The position numbers and the translations under genes were made by a program. The notes beneath the pieces are model-generated. The model ran no database searches, had not been told where the DNA came from, and saw nothing but the letters and a program-made list of their open reading frames with translations. From Candidatus Raymondbacteria bacterium RIFOXYA2_FULL_49_16 (lineage in GTDB: Bacteria; Fibrobacterota; OXYB2-FULL-49-7; XYB2-FULL-49-35): a stretch of 5,213 nt of DNA. Shown here piece after piece: positions 1 through 5,003 of this stretch. Location: NCBI GenBank assembly GCA_001789205.1, contig MFYT01000093.1, positions 1-5,213 on the forward strand, read 5' to 3'. Position 1 is the first letter of the stretch; the number at the start of each line of letters is the position of its first letter.

Positions 1-252
1 CAAAATCCGCTGCCAGGAAAATGCAATTGTCATTGGGGCCGATAGCGTATGTACCTGCCGTAAATTGTCCTTCCAGATGTGCGCGGGCAGCTTGTTCATC
101 AAAGGGAGTGAAGGCGCGATGCGAACACTTCGAGCATTTGACCTGGGGCTTTTTGCATATATCACGTGCCCATTCATTACTGCATACCGGTGAGTATCCC
201 TGTAATCCCTTGGCTTTGTTCTCCCATCGTTTTGGAAAAACATCGTTACGAT
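1..252 (-). pseudogene. TOTE conflict-system primase-domain protein, internal fragment cut by IS66
   Basis: An open frame of 83 codons (250 down to 2) runs off the left edge. It reads RNDVFPKRWENK near its start, then GYSPVCSNEW, a four-cysteine cluster (residues about 23, 32, 39 and 42, with CSKC at 39-42), HRAFTPFDEQAARAHLEG, and finally FLAADF at the edge. I recognise this order (RW/FE-N/S-K, GYSP-C-NEW, CxxC, DHL-type helix, FLAADFD) from the archaeo-eukaryotic primase domain of TOTE conflict-system proteins. Those are large multidomain proteins with helicase and nuclease modules, thought to act in defence against invading nucleic acid. The last seen D belongs to the ADFD motif, probably in the primase active site. 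There is no start codon: the frame enters directly from the IS66 end at 253, so the 5' part is missing. Downstream completeness cannot be judged. Family assignment is from memory of the motif pattern, without a search. Confidence 0.8.
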
Positions 253-272
253 GTAAGCCTACGGTAAACCCC
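253..272 (+). repeat. IS66 left terminal inverted repeat
   Basis: The sequence gtaagcctacggtaaacccc is the inverted copy of 2530-2549, matching 19 of 20 positions (mismatch at position 16). It lies just beyond the tnpC stop codon and directly against the TOTE fragment. Confidence 0.93.
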
Positions 273-278
273 GTTTGA

Positions 279-1751
279 CTATTCTGTTTTCGGGGTCCAG
301 GTATTTGGCAGGTAGGGTTCCAGCTGTTTTGTGGTGAGAGCGGGGATATCGGTCAGCATAGCGGTAAAATAGTCCGGAATGTTTTTGCCATGAAGTTTTG
401 CAGTTCCAATCAGTGAATACGCGACTGCGGCACGAGCTGCTGCTTCGTGAGAACCCATGAACATATAGTTTTTGCAACCAATAGCAACAGGACGAATACT
501 GTTTTCGATAAAATTGTTACTCAATTCAACCCGGCCATCCTCCTGAAACGGTTTGAACCAGGGCCATTGGTTCAATGCATATTTAAGGGCCTTGCCAATC
601 AGGTCTTGTGGCAGAACTTTTCCAGCCTCATTTTTCAGCCACTGATGAAAGGTTTCCATGGCGGGAACGATTTTCTCCTTCCGCATTTCCAATCTCTGTA
701 CCGGAGTCAATTGTTGCTGAGCAGCCTCCCTTTCCAAGGCAAACCACTCGCCAATCTGATCCAGTGCAAAACCGGCACGGGCAGAGTCGGCATCCTTCAC
801 CTTCTCGAAACTTCTCCGGACATGCGCCATACAGGCGGCATGCTTCATGCCCGGGCGTCTGAATACAGCATTATAGCCCTCATATCCATCCACCTGAAGG
901 ATGCCAATAAATAGCGCAAGTGTTTTTAACGGTCCTTCGTGGCCACGGCTTGGCTGATATTCAAACAACAGCAGCTTCCGAACCGGATCGTAATAGACCC
1001 AGAAGTATCCTTTGTGCGTTTTACCCCGCTTATCTTTAACCAGAACAGGAATCGGTGTTTCATCACCCTGCAAATAATTGGTCTTAAACATATTCAAGCG
1101 ATGCAATTGATAGACAGGAACCAACCATTCCGTGCCATGGCGTACGGCATCACAAAGCGTTGACTCGGCAAACTCGACGCCGCTCACTTCCATAAGCATT
1201 TTCCGTTGACGGTCGAGCGGAATGTGATATTCGAACTTCTGCGTTATCAAATGGGCAATCAGACTCGCGCCCATGTTGCCCTTCTCTACCGGCATAGGTG
1301 GAAGCTGAGCAATGGCGATGCCGTCGCCTGATTCACGGGGGTAGCGTGGCCGGATGATGCGCCGAATGAAAAGGCTGCCTGGCTTGTATTCGAATTGCCA
1401 GGAGATGTCGTCGCCAATGCTTTTGGTGTTTGCAGGCTTATCTTCAGGTTCAATGACAACGTCAACAATGGGGAGGTGTGTCGGCATCTGACCGCGGCCA
1501 TGACCCGCAGGCGCAGGTGCAGCGTCAGGCTTGCGGACATAGCTGACCGGTGTACCGGCGACCTCGGATGGCACCGCAAGCTCTGGCATGCCGCCAAAAG
1601 GCAATCCCATTTGGCCGTTATCCCTGGGGATAAACCGTTCGGTTTTCTGGCCAAACATCTGCCGCTTGAGCCATGAAAGTTCGTGGTCCAGTTTGAGGAC
1701 GGTTGTCACGAGTTCTTCGCGAGAAAGGTTGTCGAGGTCAGATGGTGCCAT
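279..1751 (-). CDS. tnpC: IS66 family transposase TnpC
   Basis: This 490-aa protein is the DDE transposase that cuts and joins the IS66 ends. The N-terminus (1-40) is a leucine-rich helical segment ending KRQMFGQKTERF, typical of IS66 TnpC. A proline-rich linker follows at about 45-105. The region near 115-145, where many IS66 transposases carry a CxxC zinc finger, reads WQFEYKPGSLFIRRIIRPRY with no cysteine pair. Catalytic residues can be placed as D230 (QGDETP), D288 (QVDGYEGY) and E416 (NNFIENSIRP), followed by the C-terminal GSHEAAARAAVAYSLIGTAK segment. The start is the ATG at 1751, 37 nt after the tnpB stop, with no clear Shine-Dalgarno site. Length is normal for the family and no frame damage is seen. 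Confidence 0.96.
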   Translation of the reverse strand: MAPSDLDNLSREELVTTVLKLDHELSWLKRQMFGQKTERFIPRDNGQMGLPFGGMPELAVPSEVAGTPVSYVRKPDAAPAPAGHGRGQMPTHLPIVDVVIEPEDKPANTKSIGDDISWQFEYKPGSLFIRRIIRPRYPRESGDGIAIAQLPPMPVEKGNMGASLIAHLITQKFEYHIPLDRQRKMLMEVSGVEFAESTLCDAVRHGTEWLVPVYQLHRLNMFKTNYLQGDETPIPVLVKDKRGKTHKGYFWVYYDPVRKLLLFEYQPSRGHEGPLKTLALFIGILQVDGYEGYNAVFRRPGMKHAACMAHVRRSFEKVKDADSARAGFALDQIGEWFALEREAAQQQLTPVQRLEMRKEKIVPAMETFHQWLKNEAGKVLPQDLIGKALKYALNQWPWFKPFQEDGRVELSNNFIENSIRPVAIGCKNYMFMGSHEAAARAAVAYSLIGTAKLHGKNIPDYFTAMLTDIPALTTKQLEPYLPNTWTPKTE

Positions 1752-1788
1752 AATGTTATCTATAATATACTATATTGATGGCTATAAG

Positions 1789-2148
1789 TCAAGCATTATC
1801 TTTCATTATTCCCAAATATCTTTTCCTCCGGCGTACCTGTTCCAGGTCAATACCCTCCAGCCACATCACCATCTGCTCGTAACCCAAGGAGCAAGAGGTT
1901 CCTGTGGTTGGAAACTGCTGGAACCGGCCCGCCTCCAAGCGACGGCAGAACAGCCAAAACCCGTGGCGGTCCCACACCAGTATCTTCATCCGGTTCCGGG
2001 GACGATTCACAAACACAAACAAGCTTCCGGATTGCGGGTCTTGCCCCATGTATGAACGGACTTCGCCGCATAGCCCGTTATACGCCTTCCGCATATCTGT
2101 CGGACGAGTACACAGAAAAATGCTCATCCCACCATGCAGACTAATCAT
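1789..2148 (-). CDS. tnpB: IS66 family accessory protein TnpB (IS66 Orf2)
   Basis: This small accessory protein is required for efficient transposition of IS66 elements; its biochemical role is not settled. It carries the family signature FLCTRPTDMRKAYNGLCGEV near the N-terminus, then SGSLFVFVNRPRNRMKILVWDRHGFWLFCRRLEAGRF spread over the middle. About 119 aa is the usual size. The ATG at 2148 is chosen as start because it overlaps the tnpA stop (ATGATTAG), the usual coupled arrangement. An in-frame GTG two codons further upstream, at 2154, is the alternative. It is not to be confused with the RuvC-like TnpB of IS200/IS605 elements. Confidence 0.95.
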   Translation of the reverse strand: MISLHGGMSIFLCTRPTDMRKAYNGLCGEVRSYMGQDPQSGSLFVFVNRPRNRMKILVWDRHGFWLFCRRLEAGRFQQFPTTGTSCSLGYEQMVMWLEGIDLEQVRRRKRYLGIMKDNA

Positions 2149-2470
2149 GAACACCGCGCAGTTGCCGGACTAATGCCGCAACATCCGGCAAGGCGAGCGT
2201 GGTAGGCAGAATCAAGCTGCCACCATCGGGAAATCGGTATTGAAATGTGCCGGAGGTCGCAGGTAGACCGACCTGTACAAAGGCTGGAAGGATGGGACTG
2301 TGGGAACTTTGAGCAGCAGCGGGTTCGGATCGGAGCCGCTGTTTCCACCAGTAGAATGTCGAAACCGGGATGCCGCTCTTTACGCAGAAAGCATGCGCTT
2401 GTTCGCCGCTTTGCCGCCAAGTGCGCAGTAGTCGCTGCATGAATTGCCGTCGCTCATGGCGTGTAGCCAT
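2141..2470 (-). CDS. tnpA: IS66 family accessory protein TnpA (IS66 Orf1)
   Basis: This 109-aa protein is the first gene of the IS66 operon. A helix-turn-helix segment lies at about 21-47 (SGEQAHAFCVKSGIPVSTFY, then WWKQRL), which fits the expected role in binding DNA. The C-terminal half holds the family's FRFPDGGSL-like stretch (here YRFPDGGSLILP), followed by a VAALVRQLRG helix. The ATG at 2470 is preceded by AAGGAGG four nucleotides upstream, a strong Shine-Dalgarno site. Such sites are not seen before most other genes here, which is consistent with the IS coming from a different background. Its 3' end overlaps tnpB by 8 nt. Confidence 0.94.
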   Translation of the reverse strand: MATRHERRQFMQRLLRTWRQSGEQAHAFCVKSGIPVSTFYWWKQRLRSEPAAAQSSHSPILPAFVQVGLPATSGTFQYRFPDGGSLILPTTLALPDVAALVRQLRGVHD

Positions 2471-2529
2471 AAAACCTCCTTGGGTGTGACGGCATATAAT
2501 ATCGTGAATTCGAAAAGAAAATAAAAGAT

Positions 2530-2549
2530 GGGGGTTACCGTAGGCTTAC
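2530..2549 (-). repeat. IS66 right terminal inverted repeat
   Basis: Read inward on the minus strand this is gtaagcctacggtaaccccc, the partner of the left repeat. It stands about 60 bp upstream of tnpA, so the tnp promoter must lie at 2471-2549. The AT-rich minus-strand stretch around 2490-2500 could serve as a -10 region, but no convincing -35 hexamer is visible. Confidence 0.93.
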
Positions 2550-2552
2550 TTA

Positions 2553-2999
2553 TTAACGTCTTTCCCCTGTTTTGCGTATATATTCTGCAATCTCTAGTTT
2601 TGCTTCTTTTTCATCACCGATGGTAAAACTTGCAACGTCTTTCCAGAAATTATTGATAACCGTCACTGAAAGTGAGTTTAGAAGGCGTTGTAGCCTTTTA
2701 TCTAAATCATCGATGATTTTTTGAGGGGTAATATCCGGGTCTATGAGCTTTACGAGAAAGGATATCGATCTTTCGGAAAGGAATTCAATTTTGGTCAGCC
2801 GGATAGAGTTCTTAAAGTTGTATCCCTTAAAACCGTCTGCCAAATAATTCTGCATCCACTGGTCGAATCCTCCGAAAGAATCATTCGCAATAAAGATTAT
2901 CTGAAAATTGATGTTCATGACAACATCATCTTCTGATATTGGGATGGAATTAAAAATATCGTCCGATTCTCTTATTTCTTCCTCTTGGCTCGAAACCAA
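2553..2999 (-). CDS. Hypothetical protein, second gene of a two-gene unit
   Basis: I do not recognise a family. The frame allows 148 aa from a TTG at 2999, which would overlap the upstream gene by 28 nt, or 121 aa from the ATG at 2918, which leaves a gap of about 54 nt. The acidic stretch before that ATG (EEEIRESDDIFNSIPISEDD) looks like plausible coding sequence, so the start is undecided. The core is mixed: NINFQIIFIANDSFGGFDQW, then hydrophobic strands (KIEFLSERSISFLVKLI), a basic amphipathic helix (IIDDLDKRLQRLLNSL) and a charged end (EIAEYIRKTGERR). No signal peptide or membrane segment is evident. It ends in tandem TAA codons 3 nt from the IS66 end, so IS arrival did not change the stop codon unless it supplied it. 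The overlap with the 115-aa gene suggests joint transcription. Confidence 0.6.
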   Translation of the reverse strand: MVSSQEEEIRESDDIFNSIPISEDDVVMNINFQIIFIANDSFGGFDQWMQNYLADGFKGYNFKNSIRLTKIEFLSERSISFLVKLIDPDITPQKIIDDLDKRLQRLLNSLSVTVINNFWKDVASFTIGDEKEAKLEIAEYIRKTGERR

Positions 3000-3319
3000 C
3001 TTCTATCTCCCAAATGAAAGGTAATTTTACCGAACATATACCCATCGTCTTCAATGTGCGCCAAACCCCTGCCGTTTGCATCGTCCATTTCGCTGTTGCC
3101 CTCCCATGAGAATTCAAGGCGCTGTTTTTCTTCTATACTTTCAATGTCATAGTCAATTGAACCTTGGACATTCCCAAAATGGAATTCACCTTGTCCGCCC
3201 TTGCGAAATTTGAAGAATCCTTCTTCCTCCTCGTCTATGAAGTCCTTATCCCATTGTTCCATCGCTGTAATACGCCATCTACCGAGGAAGGGGTTTTTCT
3301 TCTTAGATTTTCTTGGCAT
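2972..3319 (-). CDS. Conserved-looking hypothetical protein, NPFLGRWRIT type
   Basis: This is a 115-aa soluble protein with a lysine-rich N-terminus (MPRKSKKKNPFLGRWRIT) and C-terminus (RAKRKK) around an acidic centre (FIDEEEEGFFKFRKGGQGEF). The layout NPF-GRWRIT-MEQWD-DF-DEE, FHFGNVQG-IDY, LEFSWEGN-EMD-A-GRG and ITFHLGD matches a hypothetical protein type I have seen in scattered bacteria with no assigned function. The alternating aromatic and acidic pattern suggests a small beta-sheet fold (inference). ATG at 3319 is the start; an AAAGGA element about 12 nt upstream is a weak ribosome site. It shares a 28-nt overlap with the next gene if that gene starts at TTG. I give no function. Confidence 0.8.
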   Translation of the reverse strand: MPRKSKKKNPFLGRWRITAMEQWDKDFIDEEEEGFFKFRKGGQGEFHFGNVQGSIDYDIESIEEKQRLEFSWEGNSEMDDANGRGLAHIEDDGYMFGKITFHLGDRSWFRAKRKK

Positions 3320-3375
3320 ATTTATTTGAGTCCTTTCAATTGTAGAAAATAGCCTTCTAAAGACGCGAAATCACG

Positions 3376-3519: not shown

Positions 3520-3888
3520 ATGCTTTCTTCCAATTTCAGACCCTATTTCGAAATTGCCCGAAAACATCCAAAGCTTGCCCGCAAAAAAGAGCGTCTTTTA
3601 ATCCGGCTTGCACGCAAGGGAGATGTGGAGTCAAAGAAGAAAATTATGCTTCATTTTTCAGGATTTATCCTTTTTCGAATTTTGACTACGATTCATGGTA
3701 GTTCTTTAGTTGATAAAGGAGAAGATATTTTTCAAGAATGTTTTATATATGCGGATTTTAAATTGCCTCGGTATAAATTGTGGTTCAAGAAGGAGGACGG
3801 TACTTTTGCCTCTTACCGTTTCAGCACTTATTTATGGAAAGGGATTACCGGAATTATGATGCGCCATTTACGAAAACAAAAAAACTGA
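3520..3888 (+). CDS. Sigma-70 region-2-like protein without region 4 (possibly frameshifted)
   Basis: This 122-aa protein resembles the core-binding and -10-recognising part of sigma-70 family factors. After a basic N-terminus (RPYFEIARKHPKLARKKERL) come LARKGDVESKKKIMLHF (like the region 2.1 start), GEDIFQECF at about 67-75 (like the DLIQEG motif of region 2.2) and YRFSTYLWKGITGIMMRHLR at about 98-117 (like FSTYA of regions 2.3-2.4). No helix-turn-helix region 4 is present here or in the sequence after it. The frame stops at TGA directly after an A7 run (3878-3884). Skipping one base there continues into an acidic tail to 3946, so the annotated end may be a frameshift. It stands alone, divergent from the hypothetical pair. 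A role in transcription is inferred from motif similarity only. Confidence 0.65.
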   Translation: MLSSNFRPYFEIARKHPKLARKKERLLIRLARKGDVESKKKIMLHFSGFILFRILTTIHGSSLVDKGEDIFQECFIYADFKLPRYKLWFKKEDGTFASYRFSTYLWKGITGIMMRHLRKQKN

Positions 3889-3946
3889 GCAACTCAACGA
3901 GAATGACGCTTATGACAACGATGACTATTTTGAACGCGGAGAATAG
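3884..3946 (+). other. Likely out-of-frame tail of the sigma-like gene
   Basis: In the +1 frame relative to the sigma-like gene, the sequence right after the A7 run reads TEQLNEND, continues acidic, and ends YFERGE before TAG. A single missing A would join it smoothly to RHLRKQK. Its very acidic composition looks more like a real C-terminal tail than the -1 frame does. Whether this reflects mutation, a sequencing error or slippage cannot be told from the sequence. Confidence 0.4.
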
Positions 3947-4020
3947 TCGGCGGTTTTCAGATAGGGACTGATTCATAATGAGTCACATTGCCAAAAAAAT
4001 ATTCCGGAACAGAGCTAACG

Positions 4021-4062
4021 TAAAATAAAAGAACTCCTTAAGCCTTGCGACCTAAGGAGTTC
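4021..4062 (-). terminator. Intrinsic terminator of the minus-strand tRNA-like/toxin unit
   Basis: A perfect 10-bp stem (gaactcctta at 4031-4040 with taaggagttc at 4053-4062) encloses a 12-nt loop. On the minus strand it is followed by TTTTATTTTA. On the plus strand no T-run follows, so it works in one direction. It lies where a tRNA gene's own terminator would sit, and would also stop transcripts from the PIN operon. Confidence 0.85.
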
Positions 4063-4066
4063 CATA

Positions 4067-4128
4067 TGGCGCCTCGCTCGCCTCGCGTCGCCCGCCTAGT
4101 CGGCGAGGCTGGCCGCCAGGCGAAGCGG
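4067..4128. repeat. GC-rich repeat block next to the tRNA-like remnant
   Basis: This block is almost entirely G and C inside an AT-rich neighbourhood. It is made of shuffled short units such as cgcctcgc, ggcgagg and gcccgcct. Inverted pairs include gcccgc (4090-4095) with gcgggc (4125-4130) and cgcct (4093-4097) with aggcg (4118-4122). The unit ctcgccgagcgag at 4154-4166, inside the tRNA remnant, is closely related. It resembles small palindromic repeats of the REP kind, but I cannot name a family. Confidence 0.55.
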
Positions 4129-4197
4129 GCAGAATTGAACTGCGGACACCCGCCTCGCCGAGCGAGTTGAGGAGGGCATGGATTTTCAGTCCTCTGC
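4129..4197 (-). pseudogene. tRNA-Phe-like remnant with a 28-nt insert in the variable region
   Basis: On the minus strand the anticodon arm reads GAGGA, loop CTGAAAA and TCCAT (4178-4194), giving anticodon GAA (4185-4187) with T33 and A37 as in tRNA-Phe. A T arm follows at 4129-4143: GCAG, loop TTCAATT, CTGC, preceded by GTGTC, the usual variable loop. Between them, at 4150-4177, lie 28 extra GC-rich bases with a perfect hairpin (CTCGC, TCG, GCGAG). AGCAG at the D-arm side is kept, but the rest of the D arm and the 5' acceptor strand are absent. The 3' acceptor strand gives way to the GC-rich block after CCCG, and no CCA context is seen. One anticodon-stem pair (A-A) and the outer T-stem pair (C-C) are mismatched. 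It is probably not a working tRNA. Confidence 0.65.
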
Positions 4198-4213
4198 TGA
4201 ACAACTCTCTATA

Positions 4214-4333: not shown

Positions 4334-4528
4334 TCAGGCAAGGCTCAACACCTCGCGCCTCCGATGTGCGACTTTCCCCCTGCCCCTGGAACCTGCTGGA
4401 ACGAGCCCTTTTCGTTTCTTCTGCTGCCTGACAGCATCTGCAAAGATCCTATCCGGGTCAAAACCCAGTTTGGCAGCATATGCTTCCCGGTTTTTGCGAA
4501 CCTCCTCAATAATTTCATCCTTATACAT
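4334..4528 (-). CDS. Small basic partner of the PIN toxin, probable antitoxin
   Basis: This 64-aa protein begins MYKDEIIEEVRKNREAYAAK, then FDPDRIFADAVRQQKKR. This pattern (Y/W-KD-IIEEVR-IREAYA-F-FD-I-D) recurs in small proteins encoded beside PIN-domain genes, where they are taken as antitoxins. The N-terminal half is an acidic amphipathic helix suited to bind the toxin. The C-terminus (GRGKVAHRRREVLSLA) is strongly basic and may be variable or extended. Its ATG overlaps the toxin stop codon by 8 nt (ATGTATAA) and is preceded by GGGGAGGG, so translation is probably coupled to the toxin gene. No ribbon-helix-helix or AbrB motif is evident, so self-regulation by DNA binding is uncertain. Confidence 0.7.
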   Translation of the reverse strand: MYKDEIIEEVRKNREAYAAKLGFDPDRIFADAVRQQKKRKGLVPAGSRGRGKVAHRRREVLSLA

Positions 4529-5003
4529 ATTTCCCTCCCCATAATTCTTCAGGTGTACAAATTACTGGAAGCCTATACCCAGCCTTGGTCGCTTCTAGAG
4601 CAAGATGGGAGCGAATAGTCGCGTTGGCTATGTGGGCACAGTTCCAGGTTAGCAGATACTCCATTTCATGCACCGTTGCTACGGCAATATGAAATGCATC
4701 GACCAAGGCTTTTTTAGGAATCACTCGGCTTGCCAGGAATTTTTGTACCAGGTCATTAACCTGACTGTCCACTTCCAGTATCCGCAATTCTTTCATGGTT
4801 TCCAGTCGAAGCTGGGCTGCCGAAAAATCTCCTGCTTTTGCCTCAGAAAAAACATACTCTGAAACAAACAAATCAAAATTCTTGCGTTGTTCATCCCACC
4901 ATGTTCGCGTCAATTGTTGATGGCTGGCAACAAGCAGATCCCTGCTCATCCGAGCAGTCAAATAGCTGATGATACTGGTTTCAATATAAACGGATTGTTT
5001 CAT
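4521..5003 (-). CDS. PIN-domain ribonuclease, VapC-like toxin
   Basis: This 160-aa protein is predicted to be a metal-dependent ribonuclease acting as the toxin of a type II toxin-antitoxin pair in the cytoplasm. PIN features are in order: first acidic site in VYIETSIISYLTAR (E8, where most PIN domains have D), second at SEYVFSEAKAGD (E54), third at DAFHIAVA (D102), then the TWNCAHIAN segment (N121) near the fourth site. Residues 20-45 (RDLLVASHQQLTRTWW) are typical of the subgroup with a YIETS start. Length is normal. ATG at 5003 has no Shine-Dalgarno site; the AT-rich stretch upstream could hold a -10 element on the minus strand. The gene precedes its partner, the reverse of the most common antitoxin-first order. 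RNA target unknown. Confidence 0.85.
   Translation of the reverse strand: MKQSVYIETSIISYLTARMSRDLLVASHQQLTRTWWDEQRKNFDLFVSEYVFSEAKAGDFSAAQLRLETMKELRILEVDSQVNDLVQKFLASRVIPKKALVDAFHIAVATVHEMEYLLTWNCAHIANATIRSHLALEATKAGYRLPVICTPEELWGGKYV

Follow-up and report, generated by a model that had tools for sequence, protein, structure and literature searches.

A tRNA-Phe gene fragment interrupted by two GC-rich palindromes of a dispersed family in a Candidatus Raymondbacteria genome

Introduction

Islands that are integrated into tRNA genes by tyrosine integrases leave behind an intact tRNA gene and a displaced fragment of it (PMC4383910). In Islander, a 3′ fragment is present in 3760 of the 3919 islands in tRNA and tmRNA genes, and an anticodon-centred site was assigned to 2083 of the 3919 (PMC4383910). 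Rickettsia palindromic elements (RPEs) are found between genes, in frame in protein-coding genes, and in the genes for tmRNA and RNase P RNA (PMC2229807). The GC clusters of yeast mitochondria, e.g., GC42, are GC-rich palindromes of about 40 nt, which proliferate, merge and are shuffled, and which do not encode a protein (PMC4478555).

The window, i.e., the whole stretch of 5,213 nt that was analysed, is the entire contig C93 of a draft genome (5.43 Mb, 112 contigs). It resembles the anticodon-centred islands of Islander (class A) in that the genome contains a complete tRNA and a 3′ fragment that extends from the anticodon arm past the 3′ end, and in that mobile and defence genes adjoin it. 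In contrast to class A, no integrase was seen beside the fragment in the window, and the fragment is interrupted twice. In addition, the two tRNA copies have 0.5 kb of downstream DNA in common, and they are located on different contigs (C93 and C80), the ends of which hide in this draft whether the two loci adjoin.

Results

The intact tRNA-Phe gene of the genome, with the anticodon GAA, is located on contig C80 (1994–2066). When its full DNA sequence was used as a query against the genome, only this gene and the fragment in the window were matched. In a pairwise alignment, the minus strand of the window from 4198 to 4067 matched the intact gene in three exact blocks (19, 21 and 11 nt), which follow one another in the right order (Table 1). 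The anticodon arm and the T arm, which had been recognised in the initial annotation, are both included in these blocks. The copy starts four nucleotides ahead of the anticodon stem, at tRNA position 23, and ends at the 3′ end of the tRNA. Positions 23–73 have been retained with the exception of 42 and 43, which lie beside insert 1 and read AT instead of the TC of the intact gene, and G44 can be placed either at 4149 or at 4177. Positions 1–22 are missing, so that the loss of the 5′ part that had been described before was borne out. The acceptor end, in contrast, had been regarded as lost, but it is present and merely shifted by the second insert, and it is contiguous with the conserved terminator. 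The retention of the terminator was verified; together with the tRNA end it is 95% identical to the intact tRNA-Phe locus over 58 nt. Further downstream, the window and C80 are colinear over 547 aligned columns (E=3.9e-155 in the genome-wide search, E=1.7e-156 in the pairwise comparison). The match is far above chance, and because of the three ordered exact blocks and the colinear downstream homology it is certain that the window copy was derived from tRNA-Phe.

Table 1. Features of the window that were located in this study.
Feature	Position	Strand	Basis
TOTE conflict-system primase fragment	1-252	-	AEP-TOTE E=1.1e-27
IS66-family element, three genes, 29-nt terminal inverted repeats	244-2558	-	DDE_Tnp_IS66 E=3.9e-82, TnpB_IS66 E=1.3e-33
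Weakly sigma-70-like ORF	3520-3888	+	Pfam Sigma70_r2 E=0.025, NCBIfam sigma factor E=0.007, both below cut-off
Shared downstream segment from tRNA end	3542-4077		83% identity with intact tRNA-Phe locus
Intrinsic terminator, GAACTCCTTA...TAAGGAGTTC + TTTT	4027-4062	-	Conserved in comparison with intact tRNA-Phe locus
tRNA-Phe positions 63-73 (acceptor 3′ strand, discriminator), GCGAGGCGCCA	4067-4077	-	Exact 11-nt block
Palindromic insert 2, 51 nt	4078-4128		Absent from intact gene
tRNA-Phe positions 44-64 (variable-loop end, most of T arm)	4129-4149	-	Exact 21-nt block
Palindromic element 1 (insert 1), 28 nt	4149-4176		Alignment to intact gene; ends set by family consensus
tRNA-Phe positions 23-41 (D-stem end, A26, anticodon arm to position 41, GAA)	4180-4198	-	Exact 19-nt block in comparison with C80 gene
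Small ORF (4334-4528) overlapping PIN-domain-like ORF (4521-5003)	4334-5003	-	PIN E=3.2e-4, slightly under cut-off

ARAGORN did not detect a tRNA at the window locus, and with the Rfam model RF00005 the locus was not reported at E<=10, neither in a search of the genome nor in a local scan, while the intact gene on C80 reached 66.8 bits with the same model. Because neither ARAGORN nor the Rfam tRNA model detected a tRNA at the locus, a functional gene was excluded, and judged by these models the window copy is a non-functional fragment of a tRNA-Phe gene. Class II tRNAs carry long arms in the variable region. Insert 1 lies in exactly this region and the terminator has been retained, and thus an unusual functional tRNA or a tRNA-like RNA might be considered, in which the insert would be an extended variable arm and the whole a unit with a role of its own. 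This reading is extremely improbable, given that, apart from the lack of matches to the tRNA models, the 5′ acceptor strand and the D arm are missing, the T stem is broken by insert 2, the change from TC to AT breaks the pair 28–42 of the anticodon stem, and the genome has no further copies; moreover, the predicted RNA fold of the locus, which is slightly more stable than shuffled sequences (z=-1.76), does not form the tRNA arms. A repeated functional tRNA-like unit had been one of the proposals of the initial annotation. It was abandoned, as no other place in the genome has the anticodon and T arms and covariance scoring gave no tRNA; it is the hairpin and not the tRNA that is repeated at this locus. 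The absence of a tRNA signal in covariance scoring, together with a lack of other copies that share the two arms, had also been named as evidence against a tRNA-like sequence. The signal was indeed absent, but the origin from a tRNA was nonetheless proved by the alignment to the intact gene. Elsewhere in the genome, two low-scoring matches to the tRNA model had odd lengths, namely C83:21745–21803 (59 nt, 35.5 bits) and C4:52418–52510 (93 nt, 31.1 bits).

Insert 1 is the GC-rich hairpin that had been seen between the two arms. With its ends taken from the family consensus, it lies in the variable region between tRNA positions 44 and 45, and the alignment to the intact tRNA-Phe showed no target-site duplication. 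Only this one hairpin had been described before; insert 2, which is also GC-rich, had been overlooked. It interrupts the T stem in its 3′ strand, at position 64/65 with an ambiguity of 2 nt, and has the form of a palindrome, CCCGCTTCG...GCGAGGCGAGC, the loop of which seems, from the sequence, to contain another, nested palindrome. A covariance model, R1, was built from 19 copies of the palindrome, none of which was taken from the window. In a scan of the window it matched insert 1 at 4149–4176 (E=1.1e-4) and insert 2 at 4077–4112 (E=4.4e-4).

Both inserts belong to a family of GC-rich palindromes of about 25–35 nt that is dispersed in the genome (e.g., CCCGCCTCGACTCGCTCGGCGAGGCGGG). A strict pattern of the palindrome arms was found at 17 places in the genome, compared to 0 for a control with the reversed pattern. 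With the model R1, at least 59 distinct places were counted by hand at E<=1, a lower bound as 150 of the 2797 candidates were scored. GC hairpins are a possible source of assembly errors and the genome is a draft of 112 contigs, but it is hardly credible that the inserts are assembly artefacts that are not present in the organism, in view of the number of places with the same palindromes, the empty control, and several genes in which the reading frame has been kept.

The latter genes encode proteins with T9SS sorting domains (Por_Secre_tail). In seven different proteins the domain has two loops at which palindromes recur in frame (loci L009, L011, L012, L020, L023, L151 and L176, around base 1500). 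Loop 1 is filled with about 30 nt in frame, encoding RSPRVAAGEAG or a similar sequence, in L012, L020, L011 and L151, and it is empty in L023 and L176; an example is ATTCG-[30 nt]-TAATTC for a filled site compared to ATCAG-TAATTC for an empty site. Loop 2 is filled in L009, L011, L020, L023 and L176 and empty in L012 and L151, but as these domains are paralogs, some of the common insertions may have been inherited via duplication and may not be independent. A target-site duplication, which together with terminal inverted repeats related to an IS characterises MITEs, was not seen at loop 2, as it had not been seen at insert 1. A further example is a dispersed repeat on contigs C9, C29, C42, C61 and C90, which contains one palindrome on the first four of these and lacks it on C90. 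This repeat is about 200 bp long, starts with TGATAAGYATTTTRATTTT, and carries one or two palindromes (loci L046, L053, L052, L061 and L157). The copy on C46 resembles, judged from its sequence, a palindrome that is nested within a palindrome like in insert 2. As filled and empty sites coexist within one genome, the tRNA copy, the two T9SS loops and the dispersed repeat point to a clean insertion of the palindromes, which are presumed to be mobile.

A wide distribution of the palindromes was not found. A search of GTDB with a 22-nt core yielded eight isolated hits in unrelated, mostly high-GC records, which were read as chance matches, and in 167 genomes of the phylum the matches to a less strict arm pattern were scattered and had unrelated inner sequences. 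Two genomes of the same phylum, G075 and G076, share a different repeated palindrome, CGCCTCGTTAATACGAGGCG, which is present several times in G076.

The sigma-like ORF is convergent to the tRNA copy, and the intact tRNA-Phe is followed at the corresponding place by a homolog (C80:1433–1820). Between these two, frame-breaking indels are present in homopolymer runs, which could indicate pseudogenes, sequencing errors or frameshifting. Homologs of the ORF were found in the genomes G031, G032, G050 and G051, of which those in G031 and G032 are longer and open. A comparison with plasmids and viral contigs gave no match. In G031 the ORF is about 0.7 kb away from the genes for tRNA-Pro and tRNA-Arg. 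The TOTE fragment is located at the other end of the window, beyond the IS66 element, and is 96.8% identical to C80:316–567, about 1.4 kb downstream of the intact tRNA-Phe. The window contig also contains a possible end of an IS3-type transposase and an ORF (2553–2999) with a weak match to Y1_Tnp (E=0.028). From their arrangement, the small ORF and the overlapping PIN-like ORF could be an antitoxin-toxin pair. They lie in the DNA that replaces the 5′ half of the tRNA, and this region is single-copy except for one match of 52 nt. Genes of the mobile or defence type (TOTE primase, IS66, PIN-like, AbiEi-like) are found at both tRNA-Phe loci. An integrase gene was found neither in the 5.2-kb window contig nor in C80 1–1994, which covers about 2 kb downstream of the intact tRNA-Phe.

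In G028, a genome of the same phylum, contig C277 carries an intact tRNA-Phe (3271–3346) with a Phage_integrase gene (PF00589, E=1.2e-18) behind it. A partial copy of this tRNA in the same orientation lies 7.6 kb onward; it begins with the anticodon arm and includes the 3′ end. The region 3271–10940 of this contig (L143) has the appearance of a small integrative element in tRNA-Phe, with genes for a tyrosine integrase, a serine recombinase and a Prim-Pol.

Discussion

The tRNA-Phe remnant is in itself ordinary and of a known kind. The best explanation is that it is what remains, in decayed form, of the attachment site of a tRNA-Phe island at the junction of at least one integrated island, and that it was later hit by palindromes; this is considered to be probable. 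An attachment-site remnant had already been suggested in the initial annotation, and it gained support from the footprint, which begins at the anticodon arm and includes the 3′ end, and from the integrase-bearing tRNA-Phe of G028. Recombination in the anticodon region of tRNA-Phe would have brought in an element that carried the 3′ portion of this gene (anticodon arm through 3′ end), the terminator and the adjacent sigma-like gene. This would have preserved one complete tRNA-Phe, which is now on C80, and left behind a second, detached 3′ fragment that is bordered by foreign DNA at its 5′ end. The fragment would then have decayed, and GC-rich palindromes would have been inserted into it at least twice; the second insertion seems to have a further palindrome within it. 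Because no integrase was seen near the window copy, site-specific integration can only be inferred as the cause of the fragment.

A single integration does not explain the shared DNA of about 0.5 kb past the tRNA, and therefore either tandem elements or a plain duplication is needed; each of the two would explain that both loci share downstream DNA and a TOTE fragment. Since the DNA downstream of both tRNA copies is homologous, two related elements in tandem would be the likely layout. The alternative is an ordinary segmental duplication, in which the 3′ part of tRNA-Phe, the terminator and the convergent sigma-like gene were copied by recombination or by IS activity and the break within the tRNA is due to chance. 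The extent of the homology, the IS66 element and the possible IS3-type transposase end on the same contig, and the lack of an integrase would all fit to a duplication. However, the break is at the anticodon arm, where fragments generated by integrases typically start (PMC4383910), and a relative has an integrase-bearing example at its tRNA-Phe, and thus a duplication is a serious, but rather doubtful explanation.

As to the palindromes, they resemble RPEs in their locations between genes, in frame within genes and in the sequence of an RNA gene (PMC2229807, PMC10969869). The in-frame location is represented by the seven proteins with T9SS domains, with filled and empty paralogs. However, RPEs have a length of 105–146 bp, while the GC-rich palindromes of this genome, with about 25–35 nt, are three to five times shorter, and RPEs reside in RNA genes, whereas here the palindromes reside in a dead tRNA fragment. 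Likened by description and not by sequence, the palindromes seem to work like RPEs, but they are not RPEs. In size and composition they recall, again by description, the yeast GC clusters, which are, however, mitochondrial and fungal and have AG target nucleotides. Like the REP/BIME sequences that are associated with RAYT, they are short palindromes, rich in GC and scattered over a bacterial genome, but several of the copies lie within reading frames. RAYT-driven REPs gained no support as an explanation, as none of the Y1 transposase genes that were found is flanked by palindromes: the four PF01797 matches lie on contigs (C31, C18 and C107) that have no palindrome hit at E<=1.

Taken together, the palindromes appear from these comparisons to be a genome-specific, lineage-restricted family of an already known kind. 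It is tempting to speculate, albeit tentatively, that they could be undescribed minimal mobile GC palindromes of about 30 nt, characterised by clean insertion without target duplication, frame-keeping in the sorting domains of secreted proteins, nesting, and tRNA-derived targets. They might then be a bacterial counterpart of the GC clusters, moved by some enzyme. The intact tRNA-Phe shows the prior state of the site, and therefore the palindromes can be read as clean added units of 28 and 51 nt. The locus also suggests that tRNA-Phe is an integration site for islands in the Fibrobacterota. Together with the in-frame copies in the T9SS domains, the tRNA copy offers a small system for asking how short palindromes move and why they are tolerated in coding regions.
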